Of a stretch of 64,000 nucleotides of DNA, positions 591 through 13,401 are shown piece after piece. Source of the DNA: Epibacterium sp. Ofav1-8 (lineage in GTDB: Bacteria; Pseudomonadota; Alphaproteobacteria; Rhodobacterales; Rhodobacteraceae); assembly GCF_022348185.1 (NCBI RefSeq), contig NZ_JAKRFD010000017.1, forward strand, positions 1 through 64,000, written 5' to 3'. Position numbers and translations under genes: made by a program. The notes below the pieces were generated by a model. It was given only the letters and a program-made list of their open reading frames with translations. It did not search any database and was not told where the DNA came from. Position 1 is the stretch's first letter. The number at the start of each line of letters is the position of its first letter.

Positions 591-1934
591 GTGCAGCAAC
601 ATTCGTTGAAAAAAGGTCTCGATGTTCCGGTGCTGGGGGCACCTGACAACAAGATCGAAGAGGCAGCAGAAGTCCGGACCGTCGCCGTCCTCGGACAGGA
701 TTATATCGGGCTGAAACCCCGGCTTTCGGTTCAGGAAGGCGACGTCATTGCCGCAGGCGCCCCGGTGTTTGCGCATAAGGATACGCCCGAGGTTTTGGTG
801 ACCGCCCCCGCGTCGGGCCGGGTGAAGGCGATCAACCGCGGCGCTCGTCGGGTGCTTGTCAGCGTCGAGATCGAGGTCGACGACGCCGCAGCCGAACCGG
901 TGGATTTCTCTGCCGTCGGTGATGACAGCACGGCGCAGGGGCTGCGGGAAAAACTATGCACGGCCGGTCTCTGGACCGCGTTTCGCACCCGTCCCTATTC
1001 CAAGGTGCCCGCCCCGGACAGCAGCCCGGCGGCGATCTATGTCACCGCCATGGACAGCGAACCGCTGTCGGGGGATGCCGCCACCATCATCAACGACCAG
1101 CCCGAAGCCTTTGCCAAGGGTCTGGCTGCGGTGACCGTGCTCACCGAGGGCAAGACCTACCTCTGCCAGGACAGCGGTGCGACGATCCCCGGCGCCGAAC
1201 TGGCCAGCGTGACCCCGGTGGGCTTTTCCGGCCCCCACCCGGCGGGTCTGGCCGGCACTCACATGCATTTCCTGGAGCCCCCGTCGGCAGAGAAAACCGT
1301 CTGGACCATCGGCTATCACGATGTGATCGCCATTGGCCGTCTGTTGCAGACCGGCCGGCTGGACAGCAGCCGCGTGATCGCGCTCACCGGTCCCGAATGC
1401 AGCCGTCCCCGGCTCATACGCAGCCGCGATGGCGCGTCGATGACCGATCTCTGCGCCAAGGATCTCTCTGGCGGCACGCCGATTCGGGTGATTTCCGGCT
1501 CCATCCTTTCGGGCCGCGCCGGCGACGGTGCCACCGCCTATCTGGGGCGCTACGCCCGTCAGATCACCCTGATCAAGGAAGACCACGACCAGATCCCGAT
1601 GGGCTGGATTCGTCCGATGGCCTCGAAATACGCGGTGCAGCCGGTACTCGGCTCGGCCTTTTCCAAGAAACTCTATGCGCTGACCTCGAACCTCAACGGC
1701 GGCCGCCGCGCCATGGTGCCAATCGGCACCTTTGAACAGCTGATGCCGCAGGATTTCCTGCCCACACAGCTGTTGCGGGCGCTGCTGGTGATGGACACCG
1801 ATCAGGCCCAGGCGCTGGGTGCGCTTGAACTGGACGAAGAAGACCTCGGGCTCTGCGGTTTTGCCTGCCCGGCCAAATATGAATATGGCCTCGCCCTGCG
1901 CGACAGCCTCAGCAAGATCGAAAGAGAGGGATAG
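591..1934 (+). CDS. nqrA: Na+-translocating NADH:quinone reductase subunit A
   Basis: NqrA is the cytoplasmic, cofactor-free subunit of the sodium pump Na+-NQR and contributes to the quinone site. The 447-residue length matches the family (about 445-450) and the N-terminus (KKGLDVPVLGAP) matches the usual KGLDLPIAGAP pattern. The GTG at 591 is the only workable start: two nearby ATGs (572, 583) lead into short dead frames and no in-frame start lies further upstream. It opens a six-gene operon, nqrABCDEF, with gaps or overlaps of a few bases. No membrane segment is seen, as expected for NqrA. Confidence 0.95.
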   Translation: MQQHSLKKGLDVPVLGAPDNKIEEAAEVRTVAVLGQDYIGLKPRLSVQEGDVIAAGAPVFAHKDTPEVLVTAPASGRVKAINRGARRVLVSVEIEVDDAAAEPVDFSAVGDDSTAQGLREKLCTAGLWTAFRTRPYSKVPAPDSSPAAIYVTAMDSEPLSGDAATIINDQPEAFAKGLAAVTVLTEGKTYLCQDSGATIPGAELASVTPVGFSGPHPAGLAGTHMHFLEPPSAEKTVWTIGYHDVIAIGRLLQTGRLDSSRVIALTGPECSRPRLIRSRDGASMTDLCAKDLSGGTPIRVISGSILSGRAGDGATAYLGRYARQITLIKEDHDQIPMGWIRPMASKYAVQPVLGSAFSKKLYALTSNLNGGRRAMVPIGTFEQLMPQDFLPTQLLRALLVMDTDQAQALGALELDEEDLGLCGFACPAKYEYGLALRDSLSKIEREG

Positions 1935-1938
1935 GACT

Positions 1939-3138
1939 TTGGGTCTTCGCAATTTCTTTGATCGCATCGAGCCGCAATTCCTGAAGGGTGGCCGGTACGA
2001 AAAATTCTTCCCCATCTACGAGATGGTGGAGAGCTTCATCTACACGCCCAAGACGGTGACCACCGTCGCGCCGCATGCCCGTTCCTATATCGATATGAAG
2101 CGGATCATGACCTATGTGGTGCTGGCGACCATCCCCTGCATCCTGTTCGGTATGTACAACACCGGTCTGCAGACCAATATGGCGATTGCCGAATACGGTG
2201 CGTCGGGCTGGCGCGCCGCCATCATCGAGACGCTGGGCATCGGCTTTGATCCCAACAACCCCTTTGCCAATATCATGCACGGGTTGCTGTATTTCCTGCC
2301 GATCTACATCGTGACGCTGGTTGCCGGTGGTATTTTCGAGGTGATCTTTGCCGTGGTGCGTGGTCACGAGGTCAACGAGGGCTTCCTCGTCACCTCCATG
2401 CTCTACACGCTGATCCTGCCTGCAACGACGCCCCTGTGGCAGGTGGCGCTTGGCATCATCTTTGGTGTGGTGATCGGCAAGGAGGTCTTTGGCGGCACCG
2501 GCAAGAACTTCCTCAACCCGGCCCTGGTCGGTCGGGCGTTCCTCTACTTTGCCTATCCCGCCTATATGTCCGGTGAATCGGTCTGGACGCCCGTGGACGG
2601 GTTTTCCGGCGCCACCGCATTGGCGATCGGCGCCTCCGAGGGCCACGCGGCCCTGCCAGAGCGCGGGATCGAATGGATGGACGCCTTTGTCGGCACCATT
2701 CAGGGCTCCTTTGGCGAAACCTCGACCCTTGCGATCCTGATCGGTCTCGCCTTCCTGCTGATCGTCAAGATTGCCAACTGGCGGCTGATCGTCGGGTGTC
2801 TCGGAGGCATGATCGCCTTTTCGACACTGCTGAACTGGATCGGTTCCGACACCAACCCGATGTTTGCGATGCCCTGGTACTGGCACCTCGTGATCGGCGG
2901 CTATGCCTTTGGCCTTGCCTTCATGGTGACCGAACCGGTCTCCGCCTCGCACACCAACCTCGGCCGCTACATCTACGGCGCGCTCATCGGGTTCATGGTG
3001 GTGATGATCCGCGTCATCAACCCCGCCTTCCCCGAAGGCATGATGCTGGCGATCCTGTTTGGCAACGTCTTTGCCCCGCTGATCGACTACTTCGTCGTGC
3101 AGGCCAACATCAAACGGAGGGCCAAGCGCAATGTCTGA
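1939..3138 (+). CDS. nqrB: Na+-NQR subunit B, covalent-FMN membrane subunit
   Basis: NqrB is the large polytopic subunit that carries covalent FMN and riboflavin and takes part in Na+ transport. I start it at TTG 1939, not at an upstream in-frame ATG inside nqrA: the TTG follows GAGAGGG and gives MGLRNFFDRIEPQFLKGG, the expected NqrB N-terminus. The protein is then 399 residues with about ten hydrophobic helices. The flavinylation motif DGFSGAT is present, with T226 as the predicted FMN site. It begins four bases after the nqrA stop and overlaps nqrC by 8 bases. Confidence 0.95.
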   Translation: MGLRNFFDRIEPQFLKGGRYEKFFPIYEMVESFIYTPKTVTTVAPHARSYIDMKRIMTYVVLATIPCILFGMYNTGLQTNMAIAEYGASGWRAAIIETLGIGFDPNNPFANIMHGLLYFLPIYIVTLVAGGIFEVIFAVVRGHEVNEGFLVTSMLYTLILPATTPLWQVALGIIFGVVIGKEVFGGTGKNFLNPALVGRAFLYFAYPAYMSGESVWTPVDGFSGATALAIGASEGHAALPERGIEWMDAFVGTIQGSFGETSTLAILIGLAFLLIVKIANWRLIVGCLGGMIAFSTLLNWIGSDTNPMFAMPWYWHLVIGGYAFGLAFMVTEPVSASHTNLGRYIYGALIGFMVVMIRVINPAFPEGMMLAILFGNVFAPLIDYFVVQANIKRRAKRNV

Positions 3139-3943
3139 TGCAAACCAGCAAAAAGGCCTGATCCGCCGCTTCCTCGACGCGCCGCCGGATTCGGTTGGCA
3201 AGACCGTCTTTGTGGCTGTGACCCTCTGCCTTGTGGCCTCCATGATCGTGTCCGCCGCCGCCGTGGCCCTGCGTCCGGTGCAAGAGGAAAACAAGCTGCG
3301 CGACAAGCGCATCAACGTCCTCCAGGTCGCAGGTGTCTATGACGAAAACGTGCCGGTGGCCGAAGCCTTTGCCGCGTTTGAACCGCATGTGCTGGATCTG
3401 TCGACCGGCGAATACACCGACCAGTTCGACATCGAGACCTTCGATGCGCTGGCGGCCTCGGATGACCCGGCCATCGTGCGGGCGCTGGACGAAGACCCCG
3501 CCGGTCTGGGCGGCACCATGCAGGCCTATCGCATGGTCTACGTGCTGCGCGACGATGCGGGCGCGGTCGACAAGGTGGTGCTGCCGATCGAGGGCTATGG
3601 CCTGTGGTCGACGCTCTATGGCTTCATCGCGCTCGAGGAAAACGGCAACGACATCTTCGGCTTGCAGTTCTACCAGCACGGCGAAACGCCGGGCCTCGGC
3701 GCCGAAGTGGACAACCCGCGCTGGAAAGCGCTGTGGAACGGCAAGAAGCTCTTCACCGAGGACGGCCAGCTGGCGATCACCGTGGCCAAGGCCGCACCGC
3801 CCGCTGGTCAGGACTACCACGTCGATGCGCTGGCCGGTGCGACACTGACATCTGTTGGCGTCGACAATCTGGTGAAATTCTGGATGGGCGAAGCCGGCTA
3901 TGGCGCCTTCCTTGAGCGGCTCAAAGCAGGAGAGATCGACTGA
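3131..3943 (+). CDS. nqrC: Na+-NQR subunit C, covalent-FMN periplasmic subunit
   Basis: NqrC holds a covalently bound FMN in a domain facing the periplasm and passes electrons within Na+-NQR. The 270-residue protein has one N-terminal membrane helix at about residues 22-47 followed by a soluble domain. The flavinylation segment reads DALAGAT with T238 as the acceptor. The residue three before the Thr is Ala rather than the Ser or Thr common in ApbE targets; the Asp, Gly, Ala and Thr are kept. It overlaps nqrB by 8 bases and nqrD by one (TGATG), pointing to translational coupling. Confidence 0.95.
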
Positions 3944-4596
3944 TGGCACAAACCTATCGTTCGCAACTTGTCGATCCGCTGGTCGACAACAACCCGATCA
4001 CGCTACAGGTGCTTGGTATCTGTTCGGCGCTGGCCGTGACATCCTCGATGCAGGTGGCCTTTGTGATGGCGCTGGCGGTGACCCTGGTGACGGGTTTTTC
4101 ATCCTTGTTCATCTCGATGCTGCGCAACCAGATCCCCTCCTCGATCCGGATCATCGTGCAGATGGTGATCATTGCGTCCCTGGTGATCCTGGTGGATCAG
4201 CTCCTGAAGGCCTATGCCTATGAAATCTCCAAGACGCTTTCGGTCTTTGTGGGTCTCATCATCACCAACTGTATCGTCATGGGCCGCGCCGAAGCCTTTG
4301 CGATGAAGAACCCGCCAGTGGCGAGCTTCATCGACGGGGTCGGCAACGGTCTGGGCTACGGGCTCCTGCTGATGATCGTCGCCTTCTTCCGCGAGCTGTT
4401 TGGCGCGGGCTCCCTGTTTGGCGTCACCATCCTGGAGACCGTGAACAATGGCGGCTGGTATGTGCCAAACGGTATGTTGCTGCTGCCGCCCTCGGCCTTC
4501 TTCGTCATTGGTCTGCTGATCTGGGGCATCCGCACCTGGAAACCGGCACAGGTCGAAGAGCGCGAATATAAAATTCAGACGGTGGAGGCACACTGA
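3943..4596 (+). CDS. nqrD: Na+-NQR subunit D
   Basis: NqrD is a small integral membrane subunit homologous to RnfE. The 217 residues form about six hydrophobic helices. C27 (GICSAL) and a second Cys in TNCIVMGR match the conserved cysteines which, with those of NqrE, ligate an iron-sulfur centre in the middle of the membrane. The start codon overlaps the nqrC stop by one base and the stop overlaps nqrE in the same way. Confidence 0.95.
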
Positions 4597-5204
4597 TGGA
4601 AGGATTGCTTTCCCTCGCGGTCAAGGCCGTATTTGTTGAGAACCTCGCCCTGTCGTTCTTCCTCGGCATGTGTACCTTTCTCGCCGTGTCGAAAAAGATC
4701 TCGACCGCGATCGGGCTGGGTATCTCGGTCATGTTGGTGCAGGGCATCACCGTGCCTGCCAACAACCTGATCCTGACCTATCTGCTGGCGCCGGGTGCGC
4801 TGGCCTGGGCCGGGTTCCCGGATGTGGATCTGACCTTCCTTGGCCTGATCTCCTATATCGGTGTGATCGCGGCCATGGTGCAGATCCTCGAGATGCTGCT
4901 CGATAAGTATTTCCCGCCGCTCTACAACGCGCTTGGGGTCTTTCTGCCGCTCATCACAGTGAACTGCGCCATCCTGGGTGGCTCGCTCTTCATGGTGGAG
5001 CGCAGCTATGACTTTGCCGAAGCCACCACCTACGGTCTGTCCTCCGGGTTCGGTTGGGCGCTTGCGATCACCGCCATGGCGGGTGTGCGCGAAAAGCTGA
5101 AATACTCCGACATTCCCGACGGGCTTCAGGGTCTCGGAATCACCTTCATCACCGCAGGTCTGATGGCGATGGCCTTCATGTCCTTCAGCGGCGTGAAACT
5201 CTGA
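4596..5204 (+). CDS. nqrE: Na+-NQR subunit E
   Basis: NqrE is the partner of NqrD, homologous to RnfA, with about six membrane helices in 202 residues (family length about 198-202). The conserved cysteines lie in [13 protein letters not shown] and TVNCAILGG; with the NqrD cysteines they hold the intramembrane Fe-S centre. The ATG overlaps the nqrD stop by one base. The gap to nqrF is 13 bases and contains a strong GAGAGGAG ribosome site. Confidence 0.95.
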
Positions 5205-5217
5205 GAGGAGCGCAGAC

Positions 5218-6441
5218 GTGACTACATTCGGACTAGGCGTTCTCCTGTTCACATTGATCGTTGTCGCACTGGTGACGATCATTCTGGCGGCCCGTTCCAA
5301 GCTCGTCAGCTCGGGCGATGTGAACATCACCATCAACGGTGAGAAAACCATCTCCGTTCCGGCGGGCGGCAAACTGCTGCAAACGCTGGCGGCCGAGAAA
5401 ATGTTCGTCCCCTCCGCCTGTGGCGGGGGCGGCACCTGTGCGCAATGCCGCGTGCGTGTGCATTCCGGGGGTGGGTCGATCCTGCCCACCGAAGAAAGCC
5501 ACATCACCAAGCGCGAAGCCTCCTGTGGCGACCGTCTGTCCTGTCAGGTCGCGGTCAAGCAGGACATGGACATCGAAGTGCCCGAAGAGGTGTTCGGCGT
5601 GAAAAAATGGGAGTGCACCGTGCGCTCCAATGAAAACGTCGCCACCTTCATCAAGAACCTGGTGCTGGAACTGCCAGAGGGCGAGGATGTGAACTTCCGC
5701 GCCGGTGGCTATATCCAGATCGAGGCCCCGGCGCACAAGCTGTCCTACAAGGACTTCGACGTCGAGGAAGAATACCGCCCCGATTGGGACAAGTTCAATC
5801 TGTGGCAGTATGAATCAACCGTCGATGAACCGATCGAGCGGGCCTATTCGATGGCCAACTACCCGGACGAAAAGGGCCTCATTATGCTCAACGTCCGCGT
5901 TGCCTCGCCGCCACCGGGTTCCACCGGTATTCCGCCCGGCCAGATGTCCTCGTATATCTTCAACCTGAAACCCGGTGACAAGGTCACTATCTCCGGCCCG
6001 TTTGGCGAATTCTTCGCCCGCGATACGCAAAAAGAGATGGTCTTTATCGGCGGTGGTGCCGGTATGGCGCCGATGCGGTCGCACATCTTTGACCAGCTCA
6101 AGCGTCTGGAAAACCGCGACCGCAAGATCACCTTCTGGTACGGGGCGCGCTCCAAGCGCGAGATGTTCTTTGTCGAGGATTTCGACCAGCTGGCAGAAGA
6201 ATTCGACAATTTCGAGTGGCACGTGGCCCTCTCGGACGCGCTGCCGGAGGACGACTGGAAAGGCTACACCGGCTTCATCCACAACGTGCTCTACGAGGAA
6301 TACCTCAAGAACCACCCGGCGCCCGAGGACTGCGAGTTCTACATGTGTGGCCCGCCGATCATGAACCAGTCGGTGATCAACATGCTGCTGGAACTGGGCG
6401 TGGACCGCGAGGACATCATGCTCGACGATTTCGGCGGCTGA
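5218..6441 (+). CDS. nqrF: Na+-NQR subunit F, NADH-oxidising FAD/[2Fe-2S] subunit
   Basis: NqrF is the electron entry point: it oxidises NADH with FAD and passes electrons to a [2Fe-2S] cluster. In order: an N-terminal membrane anchor (residues 3-25), a ferredoxin domain with cluster ligands C68, C74, C77 and C109, an FAD-binding barrel with RAYSMANYP, and an NADH-binding domain with GGGAGMAP and YMCGPPIM. The length of 407 matches the family. The start is GTG after GAGAGGAG. This is the last gene of the operon; no nqrM (DUF539, a maturation factor in other bacteria) follows it. Confidence 0.96.
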
Positions 6442-6483
6442 CACCACGCGCCGCAATCTGCGGACATGACATACGGATTACAG

Positions 6484-6505
6484 GGGGGCCATCGGCCCCC
6501 TTTTT
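6484..6505 (+). terminator. Rho-independent terminator of the nqr operon
   Basis: A 7-bp stem GGGGGCC/GGCCCCC with a three-base loop is followed directly by five T residues, 42 bases after the nqrF stop. It ends the nqr operon before the next gene. Confidence 0.9.
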
Positions 6506-6567
6506 CGTGGGACGGCCCCATCTGCCATGGCGAACCGTGTCGCAAACAGGCTTGACGGGGGACGTAT

Positions 6568-6623
6568 TTGACGCTGCATTATGTACACTCATAATATTAT
6601 TTGTAATGTACTTAATGTGCAGC
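6568..6623 (+). promoter_or_regulatory. Promoter and large dyad operator of the ammonia-lyase homologue
   Basis: A TTGACG box at 6568-6573 is followed after 16 bases by CATAAT (6590-6595). Overlapping it is a long imperfect dyad: left arm GCTGCATTATGTAC (6573-6586), right arm GTACTTAATGTGCAGC (6608-6623), with the perfect palindrome ATAATATTAT (6591-6600) near its centre. A dimeric repressor bound here would cover the promoter. No candidate regulator gene lies next to it. The start codon at 6661 has only a weak ribosome site. Confidence 0.55.
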
Positions 6624-6660
6624 CGGCGGGACACCCGCCCTCAACCATTGGAACAGCCAG

Positions 6661-8235
6661 ATGTCCGCCCACGCCGCTTTGTCCGCGCAGGACCATGTCC
6701 TGCTCGACCGTCCGCTCAGCCCCTTTGACATCGAACAGATTGCCAAAGGGGCCGATCTGGTGCTTTCGGACGCGGCCATCGCCCGGATCAAGGCGGCCCG
6801 CGACATCGTGGATGCGATCGTCGACCGGGGCATCCGCGGCTACGGCATCAACACCGGCGTCGGCGCGCTCTGCGATGTCATCATCGGACCGGCGGATCAG
6901 TCAGCACTGTCCCATAACATCCTGTTCAGCCACGCCTGCGGTGTTGGCGCGCCCCTGCCCCCGGATGCGGCCCGGGCGATCATGGCGGCTCAGATCAACA
7001 ACTTCTGTCATGGCCGCTCCGGTGTCCGCTGGGAAACGGTGGAGACGCTGCTGGCACTGCTGAATGCCGGGATCACGCCGGTGATGCCGTCGCAGGGGTC
7101 GGTGGGCTATCTGGTGCATTCGGCCTGCATCGGATTGCTGGTGATCGGCGAAGGCGAGGCCATGCTGAACGGGGACCGGATCAGCGGCGCCCAGGCCCTG
7201 CGCCACATCGGGCGGGCACCGCTGAAGCTTGGCGCCAAAGAGGGGCTGAGTCTGGTCAACGGCACCCCCTGCGCAACCGGCCTCGCCGCGCTGGCCTTTG
7301 CCCGCCTGTCGCGCCTGGTCGATTGGGCCGATGCCGCTGCCGCCTTCAGCTATGAGCTGCTGGGGCGGCAAAGCGACCCGTTCGAGGAACAGGGCCTCGG
7401 CCTGCGCATGTCGGAGGGGATGCGCACCTCGGCCAATACGGTGCGGACCTGGCTCAGCGGGCGCGGCCATGTCGCGGCAGATCGCGCCCGCACCCAGGAT
7501 CCGCTCAGCCTGCGCGCGGTGCCGCAGGTACACGGCAGCGTCCGCGACGAGCTGGGCAATATCGCCGAGATCCTGCGCAACGAATTGCACAGCGTCACCG
7601 ACAATCCCGTGGTCTGCGGCAGCCCGGAGGCGCCGGTGGTCTCCAGCCAGGCCAATGCGGTGGGCGCGGCCATCGGTTTTGCGGCGGACCGGCTGGCGAT
7701 GATCGCGGCCCAGCTCGGCGCGATTTCCGAACGCCGCATCGACCGGATGGTCAATCCACTGGTCAGCGACCTGCCGCCGTTCCTCAGCGCCGACGGTGGC
7801 CGCTGCTCCGGCCTGATGATCGCGCAATATTCCGCCTCGGCCCTCTGTGGCGAAAACCGCCGCCTGTCGGTCCCCGCGAGCCTCGACGGCGGCGTCACAT
7901 CCGCCTTGCAGGAGGACATCCTGACCCACGCCACACCTGCTGCGGAAAAGGCCCTGCATGTGATGCAGAACCTGTTTTACATTCTGGCGATCGAATTGCT
8001 GTGCGGGGCGCAGGCGCGTGACCTGCATCCCCTCCGCGGCGGGGCGGAGGCCAATGCCCGACTGTACGCGCGTTTGCGCGGACGGGTGGCTGTCTATCAG
8101 GATGATCGCCCGCTCAACCGCGACATCGAAGATGTGGCGGCGCTGCTGCGCGACGAATGTGCCTGCGCCCCGGATCTTGCAGACCGCAGGCCCCTCAGAT
8201 CCGGTTCAGACGGTCTTCATCATCCACCACTGTAA
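6661..8235 (+). CDS. Histidine ammonia-lyase family protein lacking the MIO-forming Ala-Ser-Gly triad
   Basis: The 524-residue protein is plainly of the HAL/PAL/TAL fold: YGINTGVG (active-site Tyr), SHACGVGAPL, LVNGT (N200), SLR with R285, PQVHG, SERRIDRMVN, LPPFL and QED (E418) are all in place. Yet where family members read GSVG-ASG-DLAPLA, this one reads GSVG-YLVHSA after G149: exactly the three residues that cyclise to the electrophilic MIO cofactor are missing. The second catalytic Tyr (QDPYSLR in HAL) is Leu (L282). It therefore probably does not work as a classical ammonia-lyase; its substrate is unknown. No other hut gene is nearby, and its own promoter has a large dyad. Its last 41 bases overlap the convergent RES toxin gene. 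Confidence 0.8.
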   Translation: MSAHAALSAQDHVLLDRPLSPFDIEQIAKGADLVLSDAAIARIKAARDIVDAIVDRGIRGYGINTGVGALCDVIIGPADQSALSHNILFSHACGVGAPLPPDAARAIMAAQINNFCHGRSGVRWETVETLLALLNAGITPVMPSQGSVGYLVHSACIGLLVIGEGEAMLNGDRISGAQALRHIGRAPLKLGAKEGLSLVNGTPCATGLAALAFARLSRLVDWADAAAAFSYELLGRQSDPFEEQGLGLRMSEGMRTSANTVRTWLSGRGHVAADRARTQDPLSLRAVPQVHGSVRDELGNIAEILRNELHSVTDNPVVCGSPEAPVVSSQANAVGAAIGFAADRLAMIAAQLGAISERRIDRMVNPLVSDLPPFLSADGGRCSGLMIAQYSASALCGENRRLSVPASLDGGVTSALQEDILTHATPAAEKALHVMQNLFYILAIELLCGAQARDLHPLRGGAEANARLYARLRGRVAVYQDDRPLNRDIEDVAALLRDECACAPDLADRRPLRSGSDGLHHPPL

Positions 8236-8701
8236 GGTCCCCCGCATGCCAGCGCCACAGCACCAGGTTCAGACTGCTGTCACCGGTGCCGGGGGCAAAG
8301 CTGCGCACCAAAAGGCCCGCATACCCCGCGCCAATCAGGCTCCGGGCCAGATCCTGTGTCGGGACCTTTCGCCCATCGAGCATGGCCGCACGCCAGCCCG
8401 GGTCCGCCAGCCCGGCCGGTGTCATGCCCTGCCCCGCCAGCGCCTCCGTGTCGCGACTGTCGAATACCGGTCCCAGGTCGGCACGATACGAGACCAGCGT
8501 GGTCGGTTGCAGATCCCCCACCTGATTGGCCTCGCGCAGGGCCGTCGCCGGATCGAGCGCGGTATAGAGCGCGGCGCAGCCCTTCGGGTTGAAGCGGCCG
8601 CCGTAGCGCGCCGCCCCCACACCCGAGAGCGGCTCGCGCGCATAGACCGGGTTCAGCGCGCGATAGAGCGGCCCGTTGTAGTGCCCGTCTGTCAGGGGCA
8701 T
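8195..8701 (-). CDS. RES-domain toxin of a RES/Xre toxin-antitoxin pair
   Basis: RES toxins (MbcT/Res family) degrade cellular NAD+ and stop growth unless neutralised. The 168-residue protein has the family's pattern: YRALNP with R14, GGRFNPKG at about 35-41, ALYTALDPATALREA with Y46 and E57, and a later RSF segment. The ATG overlaps the antitoxin stop by one base (TGATG), so the two are translationally coupled. The 3' end overlaps the convergent ammonia-lyase homologue by 41 bases. On a plasmid such a pair commonly acts as an addiction module. Confidence 0.85.
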   Translation of the reverse strand: MPLTDGHYNGPLYRALNPVYAREPLSGVGAARYGGRFNPKGCAALYTALDPATALREANQVGDLQPTTLVSYRADLGPVFDSRDTEALAGQGMTPAGLADPGWRAAMLDGRKVPTQDLARSLIGAGYAGLLVRSFAPGTGDSSLNLVLWRWHAGDLTVVDDEDRLNRI

Positions 8702-9051
8702 CAGGCGTAGACGCCCGCATCGACCGCGTCGATATACTCCAATACCGCCTGCGCCTTGCCGTCCTGGACCAGCTGCATCGCGGTGCGCCCGTCAAAACCC
8801 GCCAGCGGTTCGGAACGATACCAGGCATAGGCCATCAATTCGGAGCCGAACCGGGGCTGCACCTTGTTCAGCACCTCCACCAGCTCCCGCAGGCGCCGCT
8901 GGGTCTTGGCCGATTGCACCCGCGCCCGGCGCTGCAACGCATCCTTGCCAAGCCCCACGGTCATCGCCACTTCCTCGGAGGAGGTGCGCAGCACGGCTGC
9001 GATCTTGCGCGGGTCGAACAGCCCGCCATCCGCAAATTGCATGATCTGCAT
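8701..9051 (-). CDS. Xre/MbcA/ParS-type antitoxin of the RES toxin
   Basis: This protein carries an N-terminal Xre-like helix-turn-helix (about residues 12-60) and a C-terminal toxin-binding domain of the DUF2384 type (PRFGSELMAYAWYRSEPLAGF). It should bind and neutralise the RES toxin and repress its own promoter. I prefer the ATG at 9051 (116 residues) over the one at 9063 (120 residues). An ideal GGAGG sits five bases before 9051, whereas the predicted transcript starts only about ten bases before 9063. The toxin gene follows with a one-base overlap. Confidence 0.82.
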   Translation of the reverse strand: MQIMQFADGGLFDPRKIAAVLRTSSEEVAMTVGLGKDALQRRARVQSAKTQRRLRELVEVLNKVQPRFGSELMAYAWYRSEPLAGFDGRTAMQLVQDGKAQAVLEYIDAVDAGVYA

Positions 9052-9064
9052 CTCGACCTCCATA

Positions 9065-9108: not shown

Positions 9109-9195
9109 GGTATCACACCGTGTCAGGCCTCGCACGGCAAGGACCCAGACGGCGCAGCACAGCGACAGGTCGGGCCGCAAGACGCAAACGTAGCC

Positions 9196-9227
9196 TTGCA
9201 ATCCGCCTTTATTTCGATAAAACGAGA
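9196..9227 (+). promoter_or_regulatory. Candidate arsR promoter and operator
   Basis: A weak TTGCAA (9196-9201) and TAAAAC (9218-9223) with a 16-base spacer precede the ars operon. They overlap an imperfect inverted repeat, TTTCG (9212-9216) and CGAGA (9223-9227), just four bases before the start codon. The position suits autorepression by ArsR, but the match is modest. Confidence 0.4.
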
Positions 9228-9230
9228 ATT

Positions 9231-10061
9231 ATGGAAGCACTGATTCCCCTCCGCCTGTCCGTTCTGGGCCATCCGCAACGCCTCTCGGTGTTCCGGCTCC
9301 TGATGCGCCGGTATCCAGACCGCGTGCCCGCCAGCGAGATCGCAGCGGCCCTGGAGGTCAAACCCAGTACACTGTCGTCATATTTGTCTGCTTTGATGCA
9401 GGCCGGATTGGTGACGCAAACCCGCGAGGGCACATGGCTCCACTATCAGGTCGACATGACAGGCATGCGCGAGACACTCGATGCGCTGTTTTTCGACTGC
9501 TGCCGTGGCCGTCCCGAACTCTGCTTGCCTGCACTCCCCGATGAGACCCCGGAGACCCCTGCCATGACCGACTCGAAATATAACGTCCTGTTCATCTGCA
9601 CCGGCAACTCGGCCCGGTCGATCTTTGCCGAATCGATCCTGCTGGCCGAAGGGGGCGACCGGTTCAATGTCTACTCGGCAGGCACCAAACCCTATTCCGC
9701 GCTGAACCCCTTCGCGCTTGAGGTGCTGCGCAACAAGGGACATGACACAGCTACGCTGCGCGCCAAGAACGTCAGTGAGTTCACCACCGACACCGCGCCG
9801 AAGTTCGATTTTGTCTTCACCGTCTGCGACGGTGCCGCCAATGAGGAATGCCCCGCCTGGGAGGGCCAGCCCATTTCCGGCCATTGGGGCATGCCCGACC
9901 CGGTCAAGGCCGAGGGCACCGACGCCGAACGCAGCCTCGCGTTCCAGCAGGCCTATGGCACGCTCAAGAACCGCATCCGCGCCTTTGCCGCCCTGCCCTT
10001 TGCGGAGCTGGACCGGATTTCACTGCAAAAGGCGGTGGATGACATCGCGCGCGACCACTGA
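9231..10061 (+). CDS. ArsR repressor fused to ArsC arsenate reductase
   Basis: This 276-residue fusion joins an ArsR-type winged helix (residues 1 to about 100: LSVLGHPQRLSVFRLL, then ALEVKPSTLSSYLSALMQAGLV) to an arsenate reductase of the low-molecular-weight phosphatase fold starting at M112. The reductase has the P-loop CTGNSAR with C123, then C199 and C207 in VCDGAANEEC, the three-Cys layout of thioredoxin-coupled ArsC. It reduces arsenate to arsenite. The ArsR half lacks the classical ELCVCD arsenite site; DCCRGRPELC near residues 84-93 may serve instead. I start at ATG 9231: the longer frame upstream would add a basic, low-complexity leader and run through the promoter. It heads the ars operon. 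Confidence 0.88.
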   Translation: MEALIPLRLSVLGHPQRLSVFRLLMRRYPDRVPASEIAAALEVKPSTLSSYLSALMQAGLVTQTREGTWLHYQVDMTGMRETLDALFFDCCRGRPELCLPALPDETPETPAMTDSKYNVLFICTGNSARSIFAESILLAEGGDRFNVYSAGTKPYSALNPFALEVLRNKGHDTATLRAKNVSEFTTDTAPKFDFVFTVCDGAANEECPAWEGQPISGHWGMPDPVKAEGTDAERSLAFQQAYGTLKNRIRAFAALPFAELDRISLQKAVDDIARDH

Positions 10062-10103
10062 GGCCGCACCGCCCTGACCCTCACGGAAATATAAGGACAG
10101 CAC

Positions 10104-11102
10104 ATGACCGTCTATGCATTGAACGGCCTTGGCCGGATGGGCAAACTGGCCCTGAAACCGCTGCTGGAACGCGGCGCCCAGATCGCCTGGATCAACGACG
10201 CGGTGGGCGATGCGGCGATGCACGCCCATCTTCTCGAATTCGACACGGTGCATGGCCGCTGGGACGCGGAAATCACAAGCGATGACGACAGCATCACCAT
10301 CGACGGCACCCGCCTGCCCGTCCTGAACCAGACCCGCATCGCGGATCTGCCGCTCGACGGCGTCGATGTGGTGATCGACTGCACCGGGGTATTCAAAACC
10401 GAGGCCAAGCTCGCCCCCTATTTCGAGGCGGGCGTCAAAAAGGTCGTGGTCTCCGCCCCGGTCAAGGATGGCGATGCCGCAAATATCGTCATGGGCGTCA
10501 ATGACGACATCTATGACCCGGCCCGCCACCGCATCGTGACCGCCGCAAGCTGCACCACCAATTGCCTCGCGCCGGTAGTGAAGGTGCTGCACGAGGGGAT
10601 CGGCATCAAACATGGCTCGATCACCACGATCCATGATGTGACCAACACCCAGACCATTGTTGATCGCCCGGCCAAGGATCTGCGGCGGGCGCGCTCTGCG
10701 CTCAACTCCCTGATCCCGACCACCACCGGCAGCGCCACCGCGATCACGCTGATCTACCCGGAACTCAAGGGCAAACTGAACGGCCATGCGGTGCGGGTGC
10801 CGCTGCTGAATGCCTCGATCACCGATTGCGTGTTTGAGGTGGCCCACGAGACCACCGCCGAGGAGGTGAACGCCATGTTCCAGGAGGCGGCGACCGGCGC
10901 GCTCTCCGGTATCCTCGGTTATGAGGAACGCCCGCTGGTGTCGGCGGACTACACCAATGACACGCGCTCCTCCATTGTGGATGCGCCCTCGACCATGGTT
11001 GTGAATGGCACGCAGGTGAAGATCTACGCCTGGTACGACAACGAGATGGGCTATGCGCATCGTCTGGTGGATGTGGCCCTGATGGTGGGTGAGAGCCTGT
11101 GA
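10104..11102 (+). CDS. gap: ArsJ-associated glyceraldehyde-3-phosphate dehydrogenase
   Basis: The 332-residue protein has the NAD-binding start NGLGRMG, the catalytic ASCTTNC with C150, and the C-terminal [11 protein letters not shown]. In ars operons this enzyme uses arsenate in place of phosphate to make 1-arseno-3-phosphoglycerate, which the adjacent ArsJ exports and which then falls apart outside the cell. That role rests on its place between arsRC and arsJ, not on sequence alone. It follows arsRC by 42 bases and overlaps arsJ by four. Confidence 0.92.
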
Positions 11103-12369
11103 CCTCCACGCCCGCGCAGAACGGCCTGGCCGCCTATGTGGCGGTGACGGCGGCCTATTGGGCCTTCATGCTGACCGATGGCGCGCTTCGGATGCTGGTG
11201 CTGTTGCACTTTCATACGCTGGGGTTCAGCCCGGTGCAGCTGGCCTATCTCTTTGTCCTTTACGAGATCGCGGGCATGGTCACCAACCTCTCGGCAGGCT
11301 GGATCGCGGCGCGGTTTGGCCTGACGACGACGCTTTATGCCGGGCTCGGCCTGCAAGTGGTGGCGCTGGTGGCGCTGACGCAGCTTGATCCCACCTGGCA
11401 GATCGCCACCTCGGTGGCATTCGTGATGGCGGTGCAGGGATTGTCGGGCGTGGCCAAGGATCTGGCCAAGATGGCGTCGAAATCTGCCGTCAAACTGCTC
11501 GCCCCGCGCGAGGGCGACGGGCTGTTTCGCTGGGTGGCGGTGCTGACCGGCTCCAAGAACGCGGTCAAGGGGCTGGGCTTCCTGCTGGGCGCAGCCTTGC
11601 TCGCGCTGGCGGGGTTCACATGGGCAACGCTGGGCATGGCGATCATCCTCGGCCTGATCCTGATCGCGGTGCTGATTGCCATGCCCGCAGGCCTGCCCAC
11701 CGGGCGCAAGGGCGCCAAGTTTTCCGAGGTGTTCTCCAAATCCGCCAATATCAACTGGCTGTCGGCAGCGCGGGTGTTCCTGTTTGGCGCGCGCGACGTC
11801 TGGTTCGTGGTCGGCATTCCGGTCTATTTCTACGCGGTGTTGTCGGACGGCACCGAAGAGGGCAACCGTGCGGCGTTTTTCATGATCGGCACGTTCATGG
11901 CGATCTGGATCATCTGCTATGGCGCCGTGCAGGCCGCCGCGCCCCGCATCCTGCGCGCGCCATCGCGCAGTGAGGCTGACCTGATCGCCGCCGCCCGCCG
12001 CTGGGCTGCAATGCTCGCGGTGGTGCCCGCCGTCCTCACAGCAGCTGTATTGATGTCGGGCGGACCTGCGCTCTGGCTCACCGTGACGCTGGTGGCAGGC
12101 CTCTTGCTGTTTGGGGCGCTTTTTGCGGTGAATTCCTCGCTCCACTCCTATCTGATCCTCGCCTTTTCCAAGGATGAACGGGTCACGATGGATGTGGGGT
12201 TTTATTACATGGCCAATGCAGGCGGGCGGCTTTTGGGCACTGTTCTGTCGGGCCTCACCTATCAACTGGGCGGTGTTGCAGCCTGCCTCGGCACGGCCAC
12301 CGTGATGATCGCCCTCAGCGCGCTGATCGCCGGTCGCCTGACCGCCCCAACACCAGAAAGCACCCCGGC

Positions 12370-12373
<4 letters not shown>
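11099..12373 (+). CDS. arsJ: Organoarsenical efflux permease ArsJ (MFS)
   Basis: ArsJ is a major facilitator that exports 1-arseno-3-phosphoglycerate made by the neighbouring GAPDH, giving resistance to arsenate without reducing it. The 424-residue protein has about twelve hydrophobic helices and the conserved opening [19 protein letters not shown]. It starts at GTG inside the end of the GAPDH gene (GTGA overlap of four bases) and its end overlaps acr3 by four bases. Confidence 0.92.

Positions 12374-13401
<1,028 letters not shown>

Follow-up and report, generated by a model that had tools for sequence, protein, structure and literature searches.

A histidine ammonia-lyase-like protein of Epibacterium lacking the MIO triad belongs to a widespread clade that may act on histidine betaine

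Introduction

Histidine ammonia-lyase (HAL, or HutH; EC 4.3.1.3) requires its MIO cofactor, formed at an Ala-Ser-Gly triad, because ammonia leaves poorly, a handicap that a quaternary trimethylammonium does not share. Hercynine (histidine betaine, N,N,N-trimethylhistidine) is made by fungi and actinobacteria. Ergothionase is described as a trimethylamine lyase without MIO (PMC13405746). In Pseudomonas fluorescens, hutH1 has been described as dispensable on histidine, and HutXWV is a histidine transporter according to reviews.

The gene considered here lies in a stretch of 64,000 nucleotides (the window) from contig NZ_JAKRFD010000017.1 of Epibacterium sp. Ofav1-8. It is annotated as a histidine-degrading enzyme, yet to judge from its sequence and those of many close relatives the product has no built-in MIO cofactor.

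Results

Gene and active site

The gene occupies positions 6661-8235 (+) and has 524 codons with no internal stop. Its product, P0001, has the HAL/PAL fold and the PF00221 domain (477.4 bits, cut-off 27.3); it scores 442.2 bits with the NCBIfam hutH model TIGR01225, under the equivalog cut-off of 539.15, and its predicted structure has a mean pLDDT of 83.9. The reading frame, profile scores, clade membership and structure model together identify it as a HAL/PAL-fold protein without MIO and a predicted hercynine trimethylamine-lyase. A dN/dS of 0.16 between this gene and the nearest same-genus copy, together with the intact frame, agrees with an earlier note on this DNA that the gene is not decayed; decay is rejected on this value and on the sharing of the gap by homologues.

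In alignment with P. putida HAL, G-S-V-G-[A-S-G]-D is represented by G-S-V-G-Y at codons 146-150 (7096..7110, +). The P0001 motif is GSVG-YLVHSACIGLLVIGEGEA, in which GSVG runs directly into YLVHSA and three residues are absent, the placement of this gap being arbitrary by one residue (Ala-Ser-Gly lost and Asp replaced by Tyr, or Ala replaced by Tyr and Ser-Gly-Asp lost). P0001 thus does not have the triad from which MIO is formed. The position of HAL Tyr280 is taken by Leu at codon 282 (QDPLSLR; 7504..7506, +), and that of HAL Phe329 by Ala at codon 333 (7657..7659, +). In the same alignment Y61, H91, N200, Q279, R285, M386, and E418 correspond to HAL Y53, H83, N195, Q277, R283, M382, and E414. 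The earlier note had claimed a deletion of exactly the three residues Ala-Ser-Gly, a second catalytic Tyr changed to Leu282, and the retention of N200, R285, and E418, all of which the alignment bears out, apart from the one-residue ambiguity in placing the gap; both losses that it listed are real, but the list was incomplete, since Phe329 is also replaced throughout the clade.

The three-residue gap is common to 208 unique sequences. For this comparison locus ORFs were taken in if they had G..G with Y or ASG next to it, a filter that excludes one-residue-deletion lyases by design, and at least one of the 208 rows (L206) comes from a divergent lineage outside the main clade. Equivalents of HAL Tyr53, His83, Gln277, Arg283, Met382, and Glu414 are kept in 208 of 208 and that of Asn195 in 206, while Tyr280 is replaced by Leu, Met, or Ile and Phe329 by Ala, Pro, or Gly in every one; both Tyr280 and Phe329 are kept in 81 of 81 Ala-Ser-Gly homologues. 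The pocket has thus changed only around the leaving group, at the place that the amino group and MIO would occupy, and its contacts to imidazole and carboxylate are retained.

Distribution

The earlier note had treated the gene as a possibly singular case and proposed a search for homologues with the same gap. It proves instead to be one member of a large clade that is common among Pseudomonas and rhizobia: the gap is present in all of the best 120 of 7,948 homologues, of which 112 have Leu and 8 have Met in place of Tyr280. Given this and the dN/dS value, a local assembly error is excluded. The gene occurs in 3 of 18 genomes of the genus of the window, in none of the 43 other relatives searched outside that genus, in 12 of 387 alphaproteobacterial genomes (rows of at least 559 bits; the next rows, at 401 and 393, have Ala-Ser-Gly), and in 104 of 149 Pseudomonas genomes (106 rows of at least 503 bits; next row 402), where the motif was read in 30 rows and the gap found in all 30.

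In a tree made by a quick method, the 34 sampled gap sequences form one clade and nine one-residue-deletion sequences form another, each with an SH-aLRT of 100; common ancestry of the two MIO-less clades is no more than tentative, with a support of 86 and long branches. The divergent lineage (L122:5666-7279 and L206) also lacks MIO, has GSVGYLIATSH with QDALSLR, and falls outside the main clade. Two further gap proteins read GSVGYLAPEAH (L137:5167-6927) and GSVGYLGPEG (L271:6855-8429); the former still has the second Tyr (QDTYSLR), and its hutH score is barely at the cut-off.

The locus in Epibacterium

Upstream of the gene, consecutive NqrA, FMN-binding, and NqrF-like genes (591-6441, +) make up a Na+-translocating NADH:quinone reductase operon, and the 219 bases between the NqrF-like gene and the lyase gene (6442..6660) leave the latter alone after that operon, with no transporter or hut gene beside it. 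Directly downstream (8195-9063, -) are a RES-domain protein and an Xre/MbcA/ParS-type partner, resembling a RES-Xre toxin-antitoxin pair. Beyond these, genes for an ArsR-low molecular weight phosphatase fusion, a GAPDH-like protein, an MFS protein, and an SBF/Acr3-like protein follow in a row (9120-13401), presumably a GAPDH-ArsJ-type cluster for arsenic resistance.

Elsewhere in the genome, on contig C33, a canonical HutH (GSVGASGDLAP) is encoded next to hutU, hutG, hutI, hutF, and hutC. ProXWV genes precede one of the three same-genus copies of the MIO-less gene (L169 only), and no close homologue of this sister species' ProX was found in the Epibacterium genome (best 33.5 bits). Four BCCT genes match in the genome, one over the cut-off and none inside the window; they show only that another route of betaine uptake is possible. 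Neither thiourocanate hydratase (665 bits against a cut-off of 930) nor the type III glutamine-synthetase-like gene of methylamine use (TIGR03105, which we take to be a marker of GmaS; 248.7 against 469.6) has a match over cut-off in this genome.

Neighbours in other genomes

Within 10 kb of the gene at 53 loci, hutC is found 38 times, hutF 13, hutU 11, hutI 9, and another HAL-family gene 9. Annotated examples with hut or transporter genes are Sinorhizobium meliloti pSymB, Rhizobium etli p42e, Aureimonas AU20, Burkholderia pyrrocinia, and Roseateles XES5. The operon order is ProX-ProW-ProV-lyase-hutU-hutD at L225 and L231, and hutI-canonical HutH-ProXWV-lyase-hutG-hutU at L226. The hydratase beside the lyase at L034 is HutU: it scores 967 bits as such (cut-off 375), whereas the thiourocanate model gives it 689 (cut-off 930). 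The hydratases beside other members of the three-residue-gap clade are HutU-like, with 69-85% identity to it. At L084, in Rhizobium daejeonense, a desaturase gene precedes the MIO-less gene, and cytochrome c, 2Fe-2S, and molybdopterin subunits of a molybdenum hydroxylase follow it.

Across the 53 loci, HisM-type permeases (26) and ArgT-type binding proteins (25) outnumber ProW-type (6) and ProX-type (5) proteins. HisM and ArgT types are the commoner partners in rhizobia and Burkholderia; they need not carry betaines and have little bearing on methylation. In Pseudomonas, ProX and ProW genes lie upstream at 17 of 21 loci, a BCCT carrier at two, a HisM-type permease at one, and none of these at one; the first eight loci, taken for spread, had ProX and ProW at four and contribute all the exceptions, while the further 13, hand-picked among higher-scoring rows from related genomes and no random draw, had them at 13 of 13. 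At two of these 13 (L293 and L294) the 19 kb read hold the ProXWV-lyase module but no hut gene. Canonical HutH loci of Pseudomonas genomes without the gene had ProXW or BCCT genes at none of seven (six with hutU, one without hut neighbours), these controls coming from related genomes with a single match of listed position and likewise not drawn at random. The neighbours are therefore partitioned: the transporter goes with the MIO-less lyase and not with HutH, since it accompanies 17 of 21 lyase loci and none of the seven canonical ones. At 25 loci the ProX-like protein is related to glycine-betaine binding proteins, and all 25 share the invariant Trp. In both Salinicola and Halomonas the lyase is directly preceded by a BCCT gene, the Salinicola protein scoring below both cut-offs (333 bits with the betaine-BCCT model, cut-off 650; 308 with the BCCT model, cut-off 407.55). 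Linkage to betaine-type transporters is seen in relatives (Pseudomonas, L169, L225, L226, and L231) but not at the locus in the window.

Discussion

P0001 is probably an active enzyme of the HAL fold that works without MIO, with hercynine as its most likely substrate and urocanate as its product. The imidazole and carboxylate would be held by the residues that HAL uses for histidine (His91, Met386, Glu418, Arg285, and Asn200), a conserved base, for which Tyr61 is a candidate, would take the pro-beta proton, and trimethylamine would be expelled, leaving urocanate to enter the Hut pathway. Loss of MIO is understandable because trimethylamine is already a leaving group, for which ergothionase is the precedent, and since hut genes take urocanate onward, hercynine is the simplest substrate. 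The earlier note had proposed that the fold may now serve another reaction or binding; the first is favoured by a remodelled pocket that is strictly conserved, by neighbouring hut and transporter genes, and by the example of ergothionase, and binding without catalysis is disfavoured. Several observations weigh against hercynine: the gene stands alone in Epibacterium, where TIGR03105 has no match over cut-off and no close ProX homologue was found, only one of the three same-genus copies has ProXWV upstream, HisM/ArgT-type transporters prevail at the 53 loci, reviews describe HutXWV as a histidine transporter, and R. daejeonense pairs the gene with a molybdenum hydroxylase.

It is unlikely that P0001 releases trimethylamine from a thiolated or oxidised form of histidine betaine, namely ergothioneine or its sulfonate. 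P0001 resembles ergothionase in fold, in the absence of MIO, and in the change of Tyr280 to Leu, and the reference list of PMC13405746 includes a bacterial pathway for ergothioneine sulfonate in Agrobacterium radiobacter; but the two MIO-less clades are separate in the tree, and P0001 keeps the Met382 and Asn195 equivalents while not having the ergothionase Lys at HAL position 386. Thiourocanate hydratase is over cut-off in 11 of 40 genomes with the three-residue-gap gene, and all 11 of these hydratase genes lie 1.4-4.5 kb from a one-residue-deletion lyase, that is, beside the other clade. Assignment as an ergothionase by default, from the match to PDB 6s7j, is weakened by the same three lines of evidence. 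One-residue-deletion lyases other than those near thiourocanate hydratase (GSIGAAD, GSIGAGD) were also seen at L125, L126, L130, L132, and L133, and the best PDB match of the one at L125 is the Treponema denticola ergothionase 6s7j.

Action on mono- or dimethylated histidine, or on another histidine derivative, is improbable. Without MIO, amines that are not quaternary leave poorly, and carriers of the BCCT and ProX types favour quaternary ammonium, against which must be set the HisM/ArgT-type transporters and a gene resembling SolA (N-methyltryptophan oxidase), which could point to an N-methylhistidine-type substrate. This SolA-like gene is beside 9 of the 53 loci, for example directly after the MIO-less gene at L038:11457-12647, and its product scores 412.8 bits (cut-off 257).

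It is very unlikely that P0001 is a pseudoenzyme, serving as a sensor of histidine or urocanate or as a subunit paired with canonical HutH. Such a role would suit the loss of MIO and the frequent position of the gene beside canonical HutH and hutC, but between 206 and 208 of the 208 sequences retain the catalytic Tyr, Arg, Asn, and Glu, one Phe and one Tyr are replaced uniformly, and the 19 kb read at L293 and L294 contain a ProXWV-lyase module without canonical HutH.

Of 37 genomes carrying the gene, 35 also have a HutH that exceeds the equivalog cut-off, which weakens the idea that the MIO-less gene replaces HutH. Salinicola corii has no HutH over that cut-off; it is no proof of a MIO-free route from histidine, because it has an Ala-Ser-Gly homologue of another subfamily (L121). 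Lysis of histidine itself, without MIO or with a cofactor formed from other residues, fits the histidine-binding residues kept in the clade, the presence of the gene in hut operons, its being the only lyase in the stretch read in Aureimonas AU20, and the Salinicola genome, but it is the least likely reading, given canonical HutH in nearly all hosts, often next door, and the dispensability described for P. fluorescens hutH1.

Hercynine thus remains the preferred substrate for P0001, and it is rather likely that this widespread clade of misannotated "HutH" proteins, with Pseudomonas HutH1 and the rhizobial copy next to HutXWV among them, consists of cofactor-free histidine-betaine trimethylamine-lyases. 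The clade would then join ergothionase as a second HAL-fold enzyme that catalyses an elimination without MIO, opening the Hut pathway to hercynine and making trimethylamine in soil, root, and marine bacteria. A literature search found no paper assigning hercynine lysis to this clade, although prior publication elsewhere is possible. If the proposal is true, many genes named histidase are not histidases, hercynine is a carbon and nitrogen source for bacteria and gives rise to trimethylamine in a way not yet recorded, there is a testable cause for the unexplained dispensability of Pseudomonas hutH1, and the HAL fold shows which residues go once MIO is no longer needed.

Comparison with known systems

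Compared with P. putida HAL (PDB 1b8f), P0001 has no Ala-Ser-Gly and hence no MIO, has Leu for Tyr280 and Ala for Phe329, and scores below the HutH equivalog cut-off. The T. denticola ergothionase shares the fold, the absence of the MIO serine, and the Leu for Tyr280, but it has a one-residue deletion (E-G) in place of three, with Lys at HAL position 386, Gly at 382, Ser at 195, and the Phe kept at 329; P0001 has Tyr390 in place of that Lys. The ergothionase-type clade is linked to thiourocanate hydratase and the three-residue-gap clade stands apart from it. In Pseudomonas, the order hutU-(permease-sized ORF)-hutXWV-lyase-canonical HutH fits the hutXWV-hutH1 insert in the hut operon of P. fluorescens SBW25, as described in PMC8871633, and it is from this gene order and the genus only that SBW25 HutH1 is taken to be a member of the three-residue-gap clade.
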